NCBI GenBank assembly: GCA_016647705.1
Contig: CM028336.1
Coordinates: 1,736,001 to 1,800,000 of the forward strand
Source: Eucommia ulmoides
Lineage: Eukaryota; Streptophyta; Magnoliopsida; Garryales; Eucommiaceae
Length of the DNA: 64,000 nucleotides
Direction: 5' to 3'
The notes beneath the pieces were generated by a model. It made no database searches and had not been told where the DNA came from. It worked only from the letters and a program-made list of their open reading frames with translations. Positions 1,457 to 57,652 of the stretch are shown piece by piece (the stretch's first letter is position 1; each line of letters begins with the position of its first letter). The position numbers and the translations under genes were made by a program.

Positions 1457-4129
1457 CTATATAAAATAACCTGACGAGACAGAAAAATCAGATGATGGTG
1501 CCGTATTTGTTTTCTGTTCCTCCTCTGCCGGCATGTCCTGAGGATAGAAAAAAGGTTTAGGAGACATACGTAGAAGTTGAACATCTTCTTCGAGTATCTC
1601 CACTACTTTGCTCATCGAAGGTCTATCACAAGGCTTTAGTTGGATGCACCATAATGCCACGATTATTATCTTCCTCACAATCCCCCTTTCTTCGTCCGTT
1701 GTTGCACCTACTTCCACCTCCTTTCCTTCGATAAATTGGTCATACACCCAAGACGGAAAGTAAATTTGGCTCGACTGATCTGCAAACTTCGAATTCTTTC
1801 GCCTACCAACCATATCCATAAGCAACATCCCAAAACTAAAGACATCAGCTTTGTAGGACACGCCTCCTATGTTTTTGTAGAACAACTCGGGAGCCATGTA
1901 TCCTAATGTTCCTCTAGCTGCAGTTAGAGACACAATGCTATCTTCAGTTGAATACAATTTAGCGAGCCCAAAATCAGAAACTTTGGGAACAAAGTTCGCA
2001 TCTAGAAGGATGTTGTGAGGCTTGATATCGAAGTGTAAGATTTGAATGTCACAACCCCGATGTAAATACTCGATCCCACGGGCAATTCCAAGCGAAACTT
2101 GATACAATTTTTTGTAGCCTAAGGATACATTGTTTCCTTCTCTCGGAAAAATATATTTGTCAAGAGAACCATTAGGCATGAAATCATATACGAGAACACG
2201 TTTTGAACCGCTGGCGCAGAAGCCAACGAGATGTACCACATTTACGTGATGAATTCTACCGATGGTAGCAACTTCATTGATAAATTCTTGTCCTGTGACC
2301 TTCGATTTCCCCAACATTTTGACAGCAACAAAACGGCCGCTTCGAAGTTTTGCTTTATAAACAGTACCATACCCTCCTTCACCCAATTTGTCCTTAAAAC
2401 CATTGGTCATTTTCTTGATATTAGTGTAAGAGTACCTTATAGGCATGAGGTTGTTATGATTTCGTAAGAAGTCTTCAATGGTGCCGTAAGTTGATAAATG
2501 TCTTTTCCTCCATTTGCATCCCAATAGTATGAACAAGAATATTATCCCGCATAGAAATCGTGCCGGAAGTATGACCATTACTGTGTAAGAGAAAACAAAT
2601 TTTAGGAACCATTCGGTTTGTAAAAGAAGCATTTTAAGGAAAATTATGGTCATCTTAGAGTGTCTCTAAGCCTAAAGCATATGGGCAAATGATTCTTTAA
2701 AATGAGAGACTTCGTCTTACCGATAATAGTGCCTGCTTTGATCAATTGTCTTAGGCCTACATCCAACAACAATGAAGAATGTTATGAAGTTGAAACTAAT
2801 TGTAATAGCAAATTGAAGTAACCTCCGAAGAAAAAAAATTAATTGTAATTGTTTTGGTTTGGAAACTTGCACTAATAGTGGGAGAGTAAGAATTAGGAGT
2901 CAAAAGAAAACCAAATTGCTTAAAAAGATGATCACATACACGTTAATTTACACTGGAAGAGAACAAATTTTAGGAACTGTTCGGTTTGTAAAAGAAGCAT
3001 TTTGAGAGAAATTATCGACATCTTGAGTTTATCTAAGCAATTTAAGGCAAATGATTTTTTCAAATGAGAGACTTTGTCTTACCAGTAATAAGGCATACAC
3101 CTTCCCATATTTTTCTTAGGCCTACATTCGACAAGAATGAAGAACGTCAGAAAGTTGAAATCAATTGTAATAGCAAATTGAAGTGACCTCCAAAGAAAAA
3201 AAAAAAAAGCACTAATAGTGGGAGAGTAAGAATTAGGAGTCAAAAGAAAACCAAATTGTTTAAGAAGATGATCACATACACGTTAATAAAGTACCAAAGG
3301 CGAGTCGATTGAAGTATTGACAGGAGAGATCGCAAATGACTTGGAGGCCATTATTATTATTATTGTTGGTCAGTCTGCATATTCCATCTCTTGCTTCACA
3401 CTGTCTGCAATACACGCCATACCAAAGAAGCTCAAACCCATAGAGCAAACCCTCATGAATGTCTGAAAAAGAGCTTATTCTTCTTTGAAAAATGGGTGCA
3501 CCAGATGAGATCCAAGCCACCAGTCTAATGTTGCAGGAGGCCTCTAACTCTGATAATGTAGCCTCTCTCCCTACCACTACATAAGAATAACTATTCGAGG
3601 AAGATGGAGATGGATTGGTTGTGTTTTTATCACAAGAACCAGCTACATAATCGACAGAGGAATGGCCTAGGGTCTTATTGCAGGTGATAAAAGTTACCGG
3701 AGTGTTCAATTTCACCAGGGAATTCTCTTTTTCATGACGAAGAGAATCAAGAGATGGATCCATAAAGGTTATAGGTATGTCATCGAGGGACAATGATTGT
3801 ATTGGAAAAGAAGAGCAATTATCCTTTTCAAGACCGGGATCGACTAGGCGTATGGAGAAGTTCTGGTAATTAATATCCTCCACGTAGTAGTAAGTTTTTG
3901 AATTGAAGTCCAAAATGGCACGATTATTCTTGCAGGATAGTTCGTATTCCGGAAGACCGCAGTTCTGGGGATTACCTCTCAACCGGAAAGGATAGCTAAT
4001 GTTTTTAACATTGCCGCAAGATGCAGCACAGTGTTGTGCTGCTCCTTCCATGGCTTTGCAACTTGTTATGATACTACAAAACACCAGTAGAACAAGAAGA
4101 AGATGATGATGACGGTGAATAATCGACAT
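1457..4129 (-). CDS. LRK10L-type receptor-like kinase (GUB_WAK ectodomain, non-RD kinase)
   Basis: Likely a plasma-membrane receptor kinase of the LEAF RUST 10 DISEASE-RESISTANCE LOCUS RECEPTOR-LIKE (LRK10L) family. Exons on the minus strand: 4129-3295, micro-exon 2756-2721 (or 3121-3083), and 2580-1457. With the 36-nt micro-exon the product is 664 residues. Residues 1-26 look like a signal peptide ([17 protein letters not shown]...). A cysteine-rich GUB_WAK_bind-like domain starts near residue 33 ([15 protein letters not shown]) and a WAK-associated C-terminal region runs to about 275. The membrane span is about 287-312, followed by the basic stop KWRKRH. The kinase has glycine loop GEGGYG (357-362), VAVK Lys378, alpha-C Glu393, HFDIKPHN (473-480; non-RD, usual for this family), DFG 493-495 and GYMAPE. 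The ATG at 4129 is chosen because the frame upstream offers only TTG. All junctions keep frame. Ligand unknown. Family assignment is strong; the splice model is inferred. Confidence 0.85.
2721..2756 (-). other. Proximal micro-exon (36 nt) of the LRK10L gene
   Basis: This exon encodes the extracellular stalk just before the membrane span, reading into [12 protein letters not shown] of exon 3. Its acceptor flank is nearly identical to that of the corresponding exon in the pseudogene copy (around 34460-34510), so it is probably closer to the ancestral exon than the distal duplicate at 3083-3121. Confidence 0.7.
3083..3121 (-). other. Duplicated alternative micro-exon (39 nt) of the LRK10L gene
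   Basis: The block of intron, micro-exon and intron between the ectodomain exon and the kinase exon is present twice in tandem (about 2585-2945 and 2955-3285). Each copy has a micro-exon with an AG acceptor after a pyrimidine tract and a GTAAGA-type donor. The proximal one (2756-2721) encodes [12 protein letters not shown] and this one [13 protein letters not shown], counting the codon shared with exon 1. Both have phase 1 at each end, so either one, or both together, joins exon 1 to exon 3 in frame. The paralogous pseudogene at 33.2-35.5 kb has a single block with one 39-nt exon, so the doubling is specific to this copy. Usage cannot be read from DNA alone. Confidence 0.7.
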
Positions 4130-4250
4130 ACTTGGGTTAGGAAGCAACGTGATATCTCTCTTATTTTGCTGATTTCCTCTTCTCTACTTAATAAACAGTT
4201 GGAGTGTTCACGTCTCTTTATAATGGAGTGAACTTTCCTTGGTTGTGATT

Positions 4251-4914: not shown

Positions 4915-5755
4915 TCCACCTTCAATTTCGATTCTTTTATTGGGTTATCAAATGAAATAAAACATTTGATTCCATTAAAACGAAAATGGATGGAATTGGA
5001 TTCCATACTTCATGGAGCGAAATCGGATTCCATAGTTCATGGTAAGTTATTTTTTTTTTTTTTTTCCGGACTACACCTAAAATCGAGAGAGAGGTTGTTG
5101 TTGTTGTCTCCGGTGTAGGGGGTCACCATCATCGGTGGGTTTGGGGTTACCGTCATCGGATCAGGAAGGGGGTGGGGTAGAGAGTGGAAAAAACAGAATA
5201 GTGGAGCGAAAGAGATGACTCAATTTGGGGAGAGAGATTGAAAGAAAAAAATATTTGGGTTAATTACACTTTGTACTCTTGTGGTTAGGTCAAATTGTAC
5301 TTTATGCCCCTATAGTATTTTTGTTACCCCTATAGTATCAATTTCGATTCCTTTATTGGGTTATCCAATGGAATAAAAAATTTGATTTTATCGGAATGAA
5401 AATGGATGGAATTGGAATTCATACTTCACGGGGCGGAATTGGATTCCATAGTTCATGATAAGGTTGTTTGTTTGTTTGTTTTTCGGACGACACCTAAAAT
5501 CGAGAGAGAGATTGTTGTTGTTGTTGTCGCCGGTGTAGGTGGTCATCGTCGTCAATGGGTTTGGGGTTACCATCACCGAAGCAAGGAGGGGGTGGGGTTG
5601 AGAGTGAAAAAAACCGAATAGGAAAGTGAAAGAGATGACTCAGCTTGGGGGAGAGAGATTGAAAGAAAAAGATATTTTGGCTAATTACACTTTGTACTCT
5701 TTTGGTTAGGTCGAATTGTACTTTATACCCCTCTAATATTTTTGTCACCACTTAC
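4915..5755. repeat. Tandem duplication, two ~420 bp copies
   Basis: Copy one (about 4915-5335) and copy two (about 5337-5755) share the order: a 'caatttcgattc' start, a 'ggaattgga' stretch, 'cgagagagag', a GTT/GTC-rich tract, 'ggtttggggttaccgtcatc', then 'gagagagattgaaag' and 'ttaattacactttgtactc'. The period is about 416 bp. The ends of both copies preserve the unoccupied site of the Mutator-like insertion seen at 6.69 and 11.4 kb. Small open frames here are low complexity and not convincing genes. Confidence 0.75.
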
Positions 5756-29695: not shown

Positions 29696-29909
29696 TTTTT
29701 GTTGATAAGTTCTTATAAATTAATTTTTGTATTAATATTTATATAGTAAATTTGTGAATCAATGCGTAGAGACCCATTCGCAAAGTTCGCTTCGGGGCCC
29801 TGAAGACTCGAGACCTACCCGGGAAAGTCAAAGAAGTCCTTGATTTTCTTAAAAATTCATCTTTTGCAAACCAAACAATTCCTAAAATTAGTTTCTCCTT
29901 GCACAATAG

Positions 29910-30933
29910 ACTATGTTCTTCCACCAAGATTTTTATGCCGAATCATATCACTATTCATATTATTGGGGTGCAAATGGAGGATAAGACATTTATCAATGTA
30001 CAGTGCAATTGAAGAATTCTTGTAAAGCAACAACTACCTCGTGCCTTAGTGCCTATTAGGTATTCTTACTCTAATATTAGAAAGAAGACAGATGACTTCA
30101 TGGAAAAATTGGGTAAAAGAGGGTATTGTACTGTTTATGAAAGCAACACTCTGAAGTGGTCCTTTCAATGTTGTCAAAATGTTGGGCATGTCTAAGGATG
30201 AAGTAGCTACAATCGGTAGAATTCAACATGTAAACTTCGTGCAACTCATTGGTTATACGTTATAGTTTCAAGACGGGCTCTTTTCTACGATTATATGCCG
30301 AATAGTACTCTCGACGGATTATTTTTCCAAGAGAAAGAAATAATGTCACTTTGAGTTGCGAAAAAAATGTACCAAATTTTGATTGGAGTTGCATGTGGGA
30401 TCGAGTATTTATATTAGGGTTGTGACACACAAATCATGCATTTCGATATCAAGCCTCATAACATTCTTCTAGACGAACAATGGGGTACATGGCTCACGAG
30501 TTGTCCTGCAAAAACATAAGAGGTGTCTCTTAAAAAGGTGAAGTATGTAGCTTTGGAATGTTGATTGTGGAAATGAAGGGTATGAGGAAGAATGTGGGAG
30601 CATTGGACGAATAGACAAGCGAAGTTTAGTTCTTGTAATGGGTTATGACGAATTTATCGAAGGAAAAAAAGTAGAAATAGGAGAAAAAAGGGCGATGGAG
30701 AGAAAGATGATAATCGTGGTCTTATGGTACATATCAAAATATATCCTAGTAATAGGGCTTCGCAGAGCAAAGTTGCGGGGCTACTTGAAGAAGATGTTCA
30801 ACTCCTGCATATGCTTCCAAGGACTTTTCTCAGTCCTCAGGACATGCCAGTAGAGGAACAGAGAATCAACACAATAAGATCGTCGGAATTTCTGGTCACA
30901 TCGAACATCAAAGGATTTCAGATATTGTTTTAA
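29910..30933 (+). pseudogene. LRK10L exon-3 pseudogene (module 1)
   Basis: The plus strand carries only the membrane-span/kinase exon. A splice-acceptor-like 'ccttgcacaatag' precedes frames reading [33 protein letters not shown], then pieces equivalent to the [17 protein letters not shown] and NILLDEQW segments. After NILLDE the sequence jumps to the MAPEL-equivalent segment, so the DFG motif and activation loop (about 50 residues) are missing. Stops and frame changes are numerous. The tail encodes a PQDMPVEEQRINT end like the intact gene. The same deletion is present in the 38.4-41.1 kb copy. Confidence 0.75.
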
Positions 30934-38190: not shown

Positions 38191-38691
38191 TTGTTTTTTG
38201 TTGATAAGTTCTTATAAATTAACTTTTTTATTAATAGTTATATATTAAATTTGCAAATCAATGCGTAGAGACCCATTCGCAAAGTTTGCTTTGGGGCCCT
38301 GAAGAATCGAGACCTGCCCTACCGGCTACCGGGGAAACCCAAGAAGTCTTTAATTTTCTTATAAAAACATCTTTTGCAAACCAAACAGTTCCTAAAATTA
38401 GTTTCTCCTTGCACAATAGACTATGTTCTTCCACCAAATTTTTTATGCCGGATCATATTGCTATTCATATTATTAGGGTGCAAATGGAGGAAAAGACATT
38501 TATCAATGTACAGTGCAATTGAAGAATTCTCGTAAAGTAACAACCTCCTCATGCCTTGGTGCCTATAATGTATTCTTAATATTAGAAAGATGACAAATGA
38601 CTTGAAGGAGAAGTTGGGTAAAACAGGGTACAATACTGTTTATGAAAGGGACACTTTGAAGCGGCCCTTTCAATGTTGTCAAAATGTAGGT

Positions 38692-39377
38692 CATTGTTGT
38701 GAAAGGCGCACCTCAACGAGGCACATGAGGCGAGGCGAGGCGAGGCGAGGTAAGGCGATTTCAAAGAGGCGCACGCCTTCTTCGCCTGAGCGCAAGTCGC
38801 GCCTCGCGTGAGATGACCTGGGTTATAGTAAAAATTAAAAAAAAACATCGATCCTTACCTTTTTACTCCAGAGCACATCGGATTCTTGAGTATCACGAGT
38901 TCACACTTCGCAGTTCCAGAGCAATTCGTACATCGTATTCCAGAGCAGATGCGCAGACCATTGATTCTCCTTTGAATCTTCTCCTTCGATTCTTGAGCAG
39001 ACCATTTCGCAAGTGAGTGTTCTTCTTGAGCAGACCATTTCGTAGGTGAATCTTGTTCATGAGCAGACCATTTCGAACCTTCTTCTCCTTCGGTAGTTCG
39101 AATTTCTTCTCCTTCGATTCTTTTCTTCCTCTTCCCCTGTTCTCCTCATTCGATTGTTCTCATAAATCCCAAGCGATGAGTCTCTTTTTTTTATTATTAT
39201 TTTTTTTCTTCTGGGAATTGTTTATTTATTTGTTTAATTATTTTATTTATTTTTTTGTTTAACTAATTGTTTAATTAACTTGTTTATTTAATTAAAATGT
39301 GCACCTCGCTTCAAAGAAGCACGCGCCTTGCCGCCTTGGGGCCATTGCACCTTAGTGCGCCTTGCGCCTTAAATAAC
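38692..39377. mobile_element. Non-autonomous transposon-like element with GGCGC-rich ends (copy 1)
   Basis: The left end 'cattgttgtgaaaggcgc' and right end 'gcgccttaaataac' form a short imperfect inverted repeat. Subterminal 'gaggcgaggcgaggcg' and 'gcgccttgccgcc' repeats are typical of a dicot non-coding element family. Module 1 shows the unoccupied site: 'gtcaaaatgttgggcatgtc' at about 30175-30194. The flanks 'aatgtaggt' and 'aatgtgttg' may be a damaged 9 bp target duplication. The interior has only short low-complexity frames. Confidence 0.6.
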
Positions 39378-39695
39378 AATGTGTTGGGCATGTCCTAGGC
39401 CACTGGCTGGACAAGAATTCATCAATGAAGTAGCTACAATTGGTAGAATTCACCACATAAACTTTGTGCAACTCATCAGTTCTATGCTGTTACGGGTTCA
39501 AAACAGACTCTTTTCTACAATTTCTTGCCAAATGGTTATCTCAACAAATATATTTTTCCAAGAAAAAGAAATATTGTCATTTTGAGCTGCAAAAAAAAAT
39601 GCACCAAATTTCGATTGGAGTTGCCCATGGGATCGAGTATTTTCATTAGGGTTGTGACACACAAATCATGCGCTTCAATATCAAGCCTCACAACA

Positions 39696-40345
39696 TTCTT
39701 CTCCTTCGGAAGTTCGAATTTCTTCTCCTTCGGTTCTTTTCTTCCTCTTCCCCTGTTCTCCTCATTCGATTGTTCTCATACATCACAAGCGGTGAGTCTC
39801 CTTTTTATTTTTATTTATTTTTTATTTTTTTATGGTAATTGTTTATTTATTGTTTGATTAATTGTTTATTTATTTTTTTCTTTTAACTAATTGTTATTTA
39901 ACAAAATTCAGTTTTATTAGTGTTTTATTTAACAAAATTTGGTTTTATTTATTTAATTGTGGTTTCATTTATCTATTTTTTATTTTTATTTTTCTGCTAT
40001 TGTTTAGTTGTTTATTTAACAAACTTAATTTTATTAGGATTTTAGTTTGGATTTTGGAATGGTTAGTTTGGATTCTTAATTGATTGAATTTATTTGAAAA
40101 TTTTATTAGTTAATTCTTCTTATTTAGTGTCTCACACGCAACCTGCAACCTGAGTGTGTGATTTATTTTTATATTTGAATCGGTATTTGATTTGAAGTTC
40201 GATATTGCATGAGACTAATTCAAAGTGTTTTACAATTATTGAGCATGCAATACATCATTCATTATAGTGATATTTTATTACTTTATGAGTCCATGACAAT
40301 AGAAGAGCAGAAATATAAAATGTGCCCCTCGTGCCTTAAATAACA
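39696..40345. mobile_element. Partial second copy of the GGCGC-rich element
   Basis: It begins inside the element ('ctccttcgg...gttcgaatttc') with no left end and finishes with the same 'ccttaaataacaatgtg' right end. It is about 350 bp longer than the matching part of copy 1, so copy 1 probably lost interior sequence after the tandem duplication, or copy 2 gained some. Confidence 0.55.
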
Positions 40346-41712
40346 ATGTGTTGGGCATGTCCAAGGCCACTGGCTGGACAAGAATTCATCAATGAAGTAG
40401 CTACAATCGATAGAATTCACCACATAAACTTTGTGCAACTCATCGGTTTTATGCTGCTACGAGTTCAAAACGGACTCTTTTCTACAATTTCATGCCAAAT
40501 GGTTATCTCAACAAACATATTTTTCCAAGAGAAGAAAATATTGTCACTTTGAGCTCCAAAAAAAATGTACCAAATTTCGATTGGAGTTGCTCGTGGTATT
40601 GAGTATTTACATCAGGGTTGTGACGCACAAATCATGCACTTCGATATCAAACCCCACAACATTCTCCTAGACGAACAATGGGGTGCATGGCTCCCAAGTT
40701 GTTCTACAAAAGATAAGAGGCGTCTCTTAAAAAGGCGAAGTGTATGGGTTTCAAATATTGTTTGTGGAAATGGCGAGTAAGAGGAAGAATTTGAGAGCGT
40801 TGGCCAATCAAACAAGCCAAGTTCACTTCCTGTAATGGGTGTATGACCAATTTATCAAAGGAAAACAAGTAAAAAAGGGGGCAACACAGGAGGAAAAAAG
40901 GGCGATGGTGAGGAGGATGATAATCGTGGTCTTATGGTGCATATCCATATGTATCCTAGTAATAGGCCTTCGCAGAGCAAAATTGCGGAGATGCTTGAAG
41001 AAGACGTTCAACTTCTACATATGCTTCCAAGGCCTTTTCTCAGCCCTTAGGACATGCCAACAGAGGAACATAGAACATCACAGGATTTCACACATTCAAT
41101 ATTTCAATGACTTCGTATATAAATGAAATCTAGTAAGATATGGTTTTAACTTTAAGGCGATTGATTTAGTGAAACGAGTAAATGATAATTTTCTTATTTT
41201 GTATTTTCATGGTGATAGGTAACGTTGTTGTAAATTATGTGTCTCTTAGTTTGTTCGAAACATCTTAAGGAGTTTCTCTGAAAAATAAGAAATCTAGTTT
41301 TTTTACTTTCAAATGCTCAGGATCGAGACCAAGGTGGCTTTTCCTGATTAAAGGTCTAAATAGATTGATTCCTTTGTTATTAGCTTTTCCTATTATAGAT
41401 CTCTTCTTGCTGGCTTTCTTCTTTGGGGATTACTAAAGAGCTTCTTTCAAGTTCAAAATCAGGAGTTTCTTCTTTGGGGCTCAATGCTCCTGTATCCTAA
41501 TGGCAGTTTCATAAGGCATTCTTAAAGCCCAGGATTGAAGAATCATTGTAGACCTAATCATATTCGGCCTTAGAATAGAGCAAATTACCAGAATAGAGCA
41601 AAGAATCATTCTATCGACGGAGAACTAAACAAAAAATGAACGCAACTCGAAGCATAGAGAGGAGAAATACGAAACTTACAAAGTCAAGGAGCTCCAGGAG
41701 CACTCATGCATT

Positions 41713-56127: not shown

Positions 56128-57652
56128 CTAAGCAAAACTTGTGGGACAAGTCTTGAGCACGACTCCTTCAATGGGCAGGGGCTCTTTGGGAAAAGCACAT
56201 TCATTTCCTTTTTTCTCCTCCAAAAGACCGCACGCCATGGGGCTGATCGCCGACGAAGTCCCCTGAATATCAGTACAGTTCCACTGAACTTTTTTAGGAA
56301 CCTCCGTCAAGTGAATCGAGACGTTCTGCATGCAGATTCCGGTAAACGGATTTCCCTCCATTCCGGCGAGTTGGCCGGCCATGGTGACGTTAGTCGCCAC
56401 CACGTCCATGTAGTTGATGGACTGAATCACAGGGTTGGCTTTCGGGTTCCAGCCGGCGTCGGGGTGTGAGCCGTAAGCGCCGGTCATCCAGAACACGTAT
56501 TTCATGGTCTGCATGGTGAGTCTGCGGGCGTAGATGTCGCGGACGTAGCCGCCTCTGCCGGGGGCGGTTTTGATTCTGATGCCGGATTCGGAACTGATGG
56601 CGGTGATATCCTCGATCCGGACGTCCTCGATCCCACCGGACATCTCGCTGCCGAGGGCGATGACGGCGCTCTTGGGGGAGATGCAGGTCAGTTTCCGGAC
56701 GACCAGGTGTTGCATGGGTTTTGCGAATCTGATTCCGTACTGATCCCAGCCGCTCTTCACGGCGATGCAGTCGTCGCCGGAGACGATGAAACAGTTTTGG
56801 ATCCGTACATTTGTGCATGAATCTAAAAAAAACATTAAAAAAATCGAATTAATCTCCTTGTGAAATTTCAAAAATGCCCCTATAAACGTCTAAAAAAGAA
56901 ATCTTAGAGACTCGTACCAGGGTTAATTCCGTCGGTATTAGGGACAAAAACGGGTGCAAGGATCGTCACGCCTTCGATTATTACATTGCTGAAATTTTTT
57001 CAAAAAAAAAATAATAATTAATTAAAAATTAAATATAAAATAAAATAAAATAATTTAAAAATAAAAAATGAGAACTTGCCTGCTATAGGTGGGATGAACA
57101 TGCCATGAGGGGGAGTTGGTGAGGGTAATATTGGAAATTTGAACTTGGTCGGAATACAAAATCTCAATTAAATAAGGCCTTGTGTTATTGAGTTGTCCAG
57201 CCTTGAATTTTGTCCACCACGGTTCACCTTGCCCGTCGATTGTCCCGTTGCCACCTGTCCCCCATAAAATTCATTTAATTATAAACAAATATTATTTTAC
57301 CGGATACAGTCTACGATACAATAATTAGAATATGATAATATGTGATACAAATATAATACAATAATATATCATGTCAAAATATATATAATATTGATAAGTG
57401 ATCGGGTTTGGGTTTGGGTTTGGGTATGATCAAGTTTAAATATAAAAACTTAGCTCTTAACCAGGTTCTAAAGACCGGTTAGCTTAAAATGTAAAGGCTT
57501 AAGTCGGTCTTGGGCTTAAATTTGTTGCCCAAACCCTAAAAAATGAACAATAGGTTGTGGAATTGTTCGGGCCACCATTAACAATCTTACTACTGAGGAT
57601 ATTAATGTCTCATTTATTTTGATTCATTAAGAAAAATCTATTCAATCCATAG

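Follow-up and report, generated by a model that had tools for sequence, protein, structure and literature searches.

Frame-safe micro-exon arrays between the ectodomain and kinase exons of LRK10L-2-like receptor genes in Eucommia ulmoides

Results

A receptor kinase gene with a doubled intron block

The window analysed here is a stretch of 64,000 nt from the genome of Eucommia ulmoides at G000:C12:1736001-1800000 and carries on its minus strand a receptor kinase gene, referred to as the window gene, for which we propose a spliced model of four exons (Table 1). In this model, the introns measure 158, 326 and 140 nt, and the coding sequence comprises 2049 nt, of which two micro-exons make up 75 nt; the predicted product has 682 residues. 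The ectodomain matches GUB_WAK_bind (PF13947, 70.4 bits against a Pfam cut-off of 29.4), while its WAK_assoc match falls just below the cut-off (PF14380, 26.3 bits against 27). The kinase match (PF00069) reaches 152.8 bits, APE is present and the kinase domain is intact. These matches agree with the LRK10L receptor family named in the original prediction, and the geometry proposed there is right in the gene model, which places the micro-exons after the exon for the ectodomain and before that for the membrane span and kinase. The catalytic loop reads HFDIKPHN, which we take to be of the non-RD type. A juxtamembrane stretch of 21 residues resembles, as compared by eye, the LRK10L-2 motif RHLEMYDKIEKFLQDYGNLKP given in PMC10916322. 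With its GUB_WAK_bind and WAK_assoc-like ectodomain, hydrophobic span, kinase and juxtamembrane motif, all of which are shared with the LRK10L-2 subfamily of the WAK/LRK10L group, the window gene fits an LRK10L-2-like receptor kinase.

Table 1. Features of the window gene and of the neighbouring pseudogene copy. Positions are those of the window; a slash in a splice site marks the exon/intron boundary.
Feature	Position	Strand	Description	Basis
Window gene	1457-4129	-	Spliced model of four exons	
Exon 1	4129-3280	-	N-terminus and ectodomain (GUB_WAK_bind, WAK_assoc-like); phase-1 donor T/GTATGT	Open frame, gene model, Pfam, paralogue comparison
Ectodomain open frame	3272-4183	-	Lies on one side of the doubled block	
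Doubled block	3287-2582	-	Intron/micro-exon/intron, in two copies	
Block A	3287-2953	-	Final nt of exon 1, then micro-exon A between two intron stretches, the second reaching the copied kinase-exon acceptor	Repeats, alignment, L009
Micro-exon A	3121-3083	-	13 residues in 39 nt when joined to the 3280 donor; phase 1-1; acceptor TGTAG, donor GTAAGAC	
Decoy	2952-2940	-	13 nt between copied kinase-exon acceptor (TTCTCTTCCAG) and copied exon-1 donor (GTATGT)	
Block B	2947-2582	-	Second copy of the doubled block	Repeats, alignment, L009
Micro-exon B	2756-2721	-	36 nt, phase 1-1, 12 residues; acceptor TGTAG, donor GTAAGAC	
Membrane/kinase open frame	1457-2665	-	Lies on the other side of the doubled block	
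Membrane/kinase exon	2580-1457	-	Membrane span, cytosolic juxtamembrane region and kinase, up to TAG stop	Open frame, gene model, Pkinase, dN/dS
Pseudogene micro-exon	34503-34465	-	Single 39-nt exon of the neighbouring copy at 33.1-35.6 kb	

Searching the 946.67-Mb genome assembly for the kinase gave 133 matches; 20 loci (L009-L028) and then six further stretches were retrieved. The frames of the window gene are intact and its kinase has a dN/dS of 0.20-0.29 relative to four relatives; in 10 of 10 pairs the ratio lies at 0.18-0.29 and, judged from these values, the kinase is under purifying selection. The ectodomain is looser, with a dN/dS of 0.55-0.78 in nine pairs and of 3.03 in the pair L011/L012, the latter on a dS of only 0.012.

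The family comparison also bears on the end of exon 1, for which the original prediction had used a donor at 3295 (G/GTACTT). In the alignment, the donor site reads GTATGT in L009, L010, L011, L012, L015, L020, L031 and L032 as well as in the pseudogene; in L021 it is GTATGC, and the window gene has ACGT/GTATGTGATC at 3280/3279. The donor at 3295 was consequently dropped, and by this comparison exon 1 of the window gene ends at 3280, 15 nt past 3295. Phase 1 at the 3280-type donor was verified in the window gene, L009, L010, L011 and L012. Because both donors are in phase 1, the frame argument of the original prediction still holds.

Direct repeats spaced 365, 340, 368 and 362 nt apart, with identities of 87%, 97%, 88% and 89% over 93, 79, 67 and 45 nt, respectively, span both blocks, and blastn aligns block A to block B with E = 4.6e-84 (78% over 373 columns including gaps). 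Thus, the doubling of the intron/micro-exon/intron block is not due to chance and is borne out as first described, as are the two micro-exons of 36 and 39 nt with consensus splice sites (AG/GT flanks) and phase 1 at both ends. All four of the four inclusion subsets of the two micro-exons give open frames. The 13-nt decoy at the junction of the two blocks would disrupt the reading frame were it spliced in.

The doubling is shared with a paralogue

The original prediction regarded the doubling as specific to one paralogue. This restriction is ruled out by L009 (G000:C16:2611400-2616500), which carries both blocks with exons of 39 and 36 nt and the same kind of junction, i.e. a copied kinase-exon acceptor abutting a copied exon-1 donor, with the equivalent decoy and a few base changes. 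In the block tree, block A of the window gene groups with block A of L009 (support 0.995) and block B with block B. Counted by eye, the 39-nt exon of L009 differs from micro-exon A at 2 of 39 nt, and the 36-nt exon resembles micro-exon B; length differences between micro-exon B, its L009 counterpart and the pseudogene exon are of 3 nt and in frame. A premature TGA lies where the kinase exon of L009 starts.

As had been stated originally, the pseudogene copy in the window has only one block. This block holds a single 39-nt exon, and the copy carries stop codons. In the ectodomain tree it is the sister of the window gene plus L009 (0.99 and 0.987), while the kinase tree does not settle its position and misplaces its outgroup. 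The single block may represent the older state, and the doubling likely falls between the branching-off of the pseudogene lineage and the divergence of the window gene from L009; alternatively, the pseudogene may have lost a block. An acceptor scan of the two other kinase remnants in the window (29.8-30.9 and 38.3-41.1 kb) found no micro-exons.

Arrays of 21-nt micro-exons in sister loci

Six of the loci carry a total of 20 exons of 21 nt (type 1) in the matching intron: three in L010, five each in L011 and L012, four in L015, two in L020 and one in L021. After these exons follows one exon of 30 or 33 nt (type 2) in L010, L011, L012, L015 and L020, and a fused exon of 36 nt in L021. Multiplied micro-exons thus occur in other loci of this clade too. 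Every type-1 exon (20/20) has an AG acceptor and a GTGAG donor; the type-2 exon that ends the L020 array has the donor GTTAAG. The number and order of micro-exons vary among the close duplicates L011, L012 and L015. Eight of the 10 introns between 21-nt copies in L010-L012 measure 179-190 nt, the two of L010 being 2029 and 802 nt long, and the introns preceding the 21-nt exons in L011 and L012 are short (179-196 nt).

Inclusion subsets were enumerated for the window gene, L009, L010, L011 and L012, from whose gene models phase 1-1 of the 21-nt exons was taken; L015, L020 and L021 were left out as broken. The subsets are open throughout, with 16/16 in L010, 64/64 in L011, 64/64 in L012 and, read up to the TGA at the start of the kinase exon, 4/4 in L009. 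Since every subset is open, the reading frame does not enforce mutual exclusion. L015 has a stop and frame shifts, L020 a stop and a kinase deletion, and L021 stops and frame shifts; together with L009 and the pseudogene, five of the nine loci with micro-exons are broken.

A genome-wide search with a 23-nt acceptor pattern (up to three mismatches) gave 23 matches as compared to nine for the reversed control. The 19 matches with up to two mismatches are confined to the six array loci, where 18 of them mark 21-nt exons and one marks the fused exon of L021; the four matches with three mismatches lie outside these loci. The pattern missed two copies in L010 and the fused exons of the window gene, L009 and the pseudogene, and diverged arrays elsewhere in the genome are possible. 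An ectodomain search added partial copies, and no array was found in L031-L034. The acceptor motif found none in the more distant LRK10L genes L022-L028, in which the introns are long and may hold unrelated micro-exons. The DNA taken around the kinase matches L013, L014 and L016-L019 has no ectodomain match; of these, the stretches of L013, L014, L016 and L019 were read. The L031 intron appears to be interrupted by an insertion.

In a tree of the short flanks, the two copies of L020 group together (0.899), and the three copies of L010 are scattered with weak support. The window gene/L009 blocks and the L020 pair suggest that micro-exons were multiplied within a lineage at least twice. We make no claim of independent multiplication in every lineage, given the weak scatter of the L010 copies and the misplaced outgroup of the kinase tree.

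Compared by eye, the micro-exons of the window gene and of L009 combine a type-1-like start with a type-2-like end; in the 39-nt exon, the start reads GCCTAAGAAAAATATGGGAAG and the end has a GTAAGA donor. In L021, a type-1 acceptor leads straight into the type-2 exon. On the simplest reading, a deletion joined the two exon types in the window gene lineage, and the resulting unit was doubled afterwards.

Heptad content, splice signals and variability

Each 21-nt exon codes for seven residues, one of which is split across the junction, with the pattern x-[M/K/I/V]-x-x-L-[W]-[R/K/Q/L]. Leu occupies position 5 in 20 of 20 type-1 exons and the adjoining Trp position 6 in 19 of 20; in each heptad, M/K/I/V and L are three residues apart. 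None of the 20 exons contains a stop, which has a P of 0.0115 under a star mutation model and is not significant under column shuffling (P 0.33). Likewise, the constant length of 21 nt proves little by itself because gap-free windows of 21 columns are common in the aligned units (49/120). The 36-39-nt exons vary by steps of 3 nt, while the surrounding intron has, by eye, gaps of several lengths.

The 40 nt preceding the 21-nt exon show low variability (0.069). Here, CTGAC in 18 of 20 copies, or TTGAC in the two copies of L020, is followed by a pyrimidine-rich tract; these motifs resemble a plant branch point. The low variability of this flank may simply reflect splicing constraint.

The exons differ more between copies than the near flanks do (mean p 0.305 versus 0.147): of the 190 copy pairs, which are not independent, 162 have a larger difference in the exon than in the flanks, 26 a smaller and two an equal one. 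In five non-overlapping pairs that we chose ourselves, the differences amount to 38/105 in the exon, 9/275 in the upstream flank and 61/279 in the downstream flank. When these pairs are pooled, Fisher's test gives P 4e-16 for exon versus upstream and P 0.004 for exon versus downstream flank; pair by pair, the latter contrast is below 0.05 in one of five. Among 150 windows, nine reach the variability of the exon, its own included, and variability is highest at the far downstream end. Thus, the exons are more variable than their near flanks but not clearly more variable than the downstream intron alone. Among the 15 distinct 21-nt exons, pN is 0.295 and pS 0.231, with about four synonymous sites per exon. 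Because the downstream contrast is modest, synonymous sites are few and the pairs are self-chosen, we hold back from calling diversifying selection proven.

A search of genomic DNA for joined exons, as expected of a processed copy, yielded 30 matches, none of which has the heptads joined to either large exon. One match (query 1-82, 39%, five stops) is exon 1 of L011 itself running into its intron.

Discussion

We suggest a model in which the phase-1 intron between the ectodomain and the membrane/kinase exons is prone to duplicating symmetric (phase 1-1) micro-exons. In this model, intron-definition splicing would include most or all of the micro-exons, and how long the extracellular stalk is and what its chemistry is would depend on their copy number and content. 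With one heptad, or about two helical turns, added by each 21-nt exon, the length of the stalk would change while the helical register between ectodomain and membrane would be kept. In the window gene lineage, doubling of the fused 39/36-nt unit would have produced a stalk of about 25 residues. If exons were skipped, whether by failure or under regulation, the stalks would be shorter but would remain in frame because the exons are symmetric. We give roughly even odds to the core of this model, i.e. that the micro-exons are mostly included under normal conditions and that copy number thereby sets a heptad-built stalk in a duplication-prone phase-1 intron. From the sequence pattern, we infer that the stalk may form a helix or coiled coil; it may also govern receptor pairing, and regulated skipping is possible as an additional layer.

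The expectation of inclusion comes from the report that plant splicing is largely dominated by intron definition (PMC7807721): with intron definition and good intron ends, we expect transcripts to contain most micro-exons and stalk length to follow from copy number, and with introns of 158, 326 and 140 nt, inclusion of both micro-exons would be at least as likely an outcome in the window gene. Against such constitutive stalks stand the less efficient splicing of very short exons (PMC8831610), the overrepresentation of exon skipping among regulated events in Arabidopsis (PMC7807721), the five broken loci among nine and the absence of joined exons among the 30 genomic matches.

The overrepresentation of exon skipping speaks for a combinatorial use of the arrays, in which micro-exons would be individually skipped or chosen under regulation to give a set of receptors differing in stalk length and sequence. 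This enlarges the idea of the original prediction, with four in-frame forms for the window gene and up to 64 for L011 or L012. In its favour, all subsets are in frame and the exons have diverged from one another. Moreover, LRK10L3 of Arabidopsis has isoforms with peptide support in which alternative first exons alter the ectodomain (PMC13136898), and micro-exons are enriched among the exons skipped upon loss of the plant factor GRP20 (PMC10808074). However, each 21-nt copy has a GTGAG donor and a conserved acceptor, which points to steady use, plant splicing is reported to be dominated by intron definition, and the introns of L011 and L012 are short, whereas skipped exons in Arabidopsis are flanked by longer introns (PMC7807721). 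On balance, we consider regulated combinatorial splicing a possible but rather unlikely explanation of the arrays.

The high share of broken loci, the differences in copy number and order among L011, L012 and L015, the column-shuffle result and the commonness of gap-free 21-nt windows would all fit non-functional micro-exons that an unstable intron gives rise to, for the most part skipped or left unspliced, with symmetry and a place in a permissive stalk making them tolerable. Against drift of this kind stand a Leu-Trp core and splice signals that are kept across lineages, the star-model result, 36-39-nt exons that differ by 3-nt steps next to an intron with gaps of several lengths, and the suggested repeated multiplication within lineages, and we judge it improbable. 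Even further down we place the idea that the decoy in the middle intron acts as a poison element, which, when spliced in, would send the transcript to decay, so that the doubled window gene would be down-regulated or dying. While the decoy is flanked by a good acceptor and donor, breaks the frame and has an equivalent in L009, which carries a premature stop, the frames of the window gene are intact, its kinase dN/dS is low (0.20-0.29) and very short exons are spliced less efficiently (PMC8831610); we regard the poison element as very improbable.

A further-reaching reading is that these genes form a plant immune-type receptor family in which a birth-and-death array of hypervariable one-heptad micro-exons would serve as a splice-tunable stalk. 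Each gene would then yield a ladder of receptors with extracellular juxtamembrane helices that vary by whole heptads, and the heptads would be under diversifying selection, perhaps for receptor pairing or for evading interference by pathogens. This reading is speculative, and we regard it as doubtful.

The layout of the arrays resembles that of the micro-exon genes (MEGs) of schistosomes, in which most of the coding region consists of very small symmetrical exons in series and splicing generates sets of similar, fast evolving proteins at the host-parasite interface (PMC4350168). Small symmetrical exons in series are also found here (20/20 type-1 exons of 21 nt; type-2 and fused exons of 30-39 nt). 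By contrast, micro-exons make up only 75 of the 2049 coding nt of the window gene, and the plant arrays, known here from sequence, would form only a stalk between two large exons; no homology is implied. Array exons in Dscam code for parts of large domains, whereas each 21-nt exon would code for one heptad. Dscam-type arrays of animals share with the plant arrays that exons are duplicated in tandem within one gene; they are mutually exclusive (PMC1397879), while in the plant genes exclusion is not enforced by the frame.

Small exons as such are known in plants, including conserved micro-exons (Nat Commun 2022) and GRP20-dependent ones, and in SEP3, two micro-exons encode an amphipathic helix on which the formation of multimers depends (PMC8831610, PMC10808074). 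The micro-exons of PMC8831610 (15 nt or less) are evolutionarily conserved, whereas the arrays described here are tandem-multiplied and variable; the main text of that paper uses neither the word "tandem" nor the word "receptor". Among the literature matches listed, none, by title and opening of the abstract, concerns micro-exon arrays between the ectodomain and the membrane of plant receptors. Plant micro-exons are often missed or misannotated in genomes (PMC8831610) and, therefore, part of receptor diversity may be hidden.

These arrays appear to let receptor stalks change without loss of the reading frame. Diversification of plant receptors is usually discussed in terms of whole-gene duplication and sequence change in the ectodomain. 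The genes described here change by a smaller unit, a 21-nt exon for a single heptad close to the membrane. Close paralogues have one to five copies of this exon, which is frame-safe and is more variable than its near flanks. If these exons are translated, they would provide a natural length series for the effects of stalk length and register on the pairing and signalling of plant receptors.

Sequences at and around the receptor gene

At the junction of the duplication in the LRK10L-2-like receptor gene, the copied acceptor adjoins the copied donor, and together they delimit a 13-nt decoy exon that would break the reading frame if used. This decoy, with a few base changes, is also carried by L009, the paralogue of the gene on C16. 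A tandem duplication upstream of the gene (spacing ~416-421 nt, segments 78-90% identical) is perhaps located in its promoter region, and immediately 3' of the gene lies a tandem repeat with a period of 109 nt and 1.9 copies; by eye, a similar sequence also follows the related pseudogene, near 33.0 kb.

Features of the window
Feature	Position	Strand
Tandem repeat	1000-1206	
Decoy exon	2940-2952	
Tandem duplication	4922-5752	
Kinase-exon remnant, family of the receptor gene	29828-30857	plus
Kinase-exon remnant, family of the receptor gene	38335-41107	plus
Open frame	56128-56889	minus

Both kinase-exon remnants retain the end of the last intron; a search of the two for an ectodomain match found none, and the scan for the micro-exon acceptor motif returned no micro-exons. 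By eye, the open frame resembles an exon of a polygalacturonase (glycoside hydrolase 28).

Related loci

In L013 and L016, two close relatives on G000:C12, the kinase frame spans 402 and 340 residues, respectively, with no ectodomain match upstream within the DNA fetched; in this they are like kinase-only derivatives. At L031 (G000:C1:40030900-40035300), the ectodomain exon is open and an insertion appears to interrupt the intron that follows it. The stretch from L031 to L010 is without a kinase match of the receptor gene's clade.

L010 itself (G000:C1) belongs to the loci of this clade with arrays of 21-nt micro-exons. Its 21-nt exons are separated by introns of 2029 and 802 nt, and the third lacks the conserved tryptophan. 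Among the close duplicates L011, L012 and L015, the 21-nt exons differ in order as well as in number (five, five and four, respectively), which suggests unequal exchange inside these arrays.
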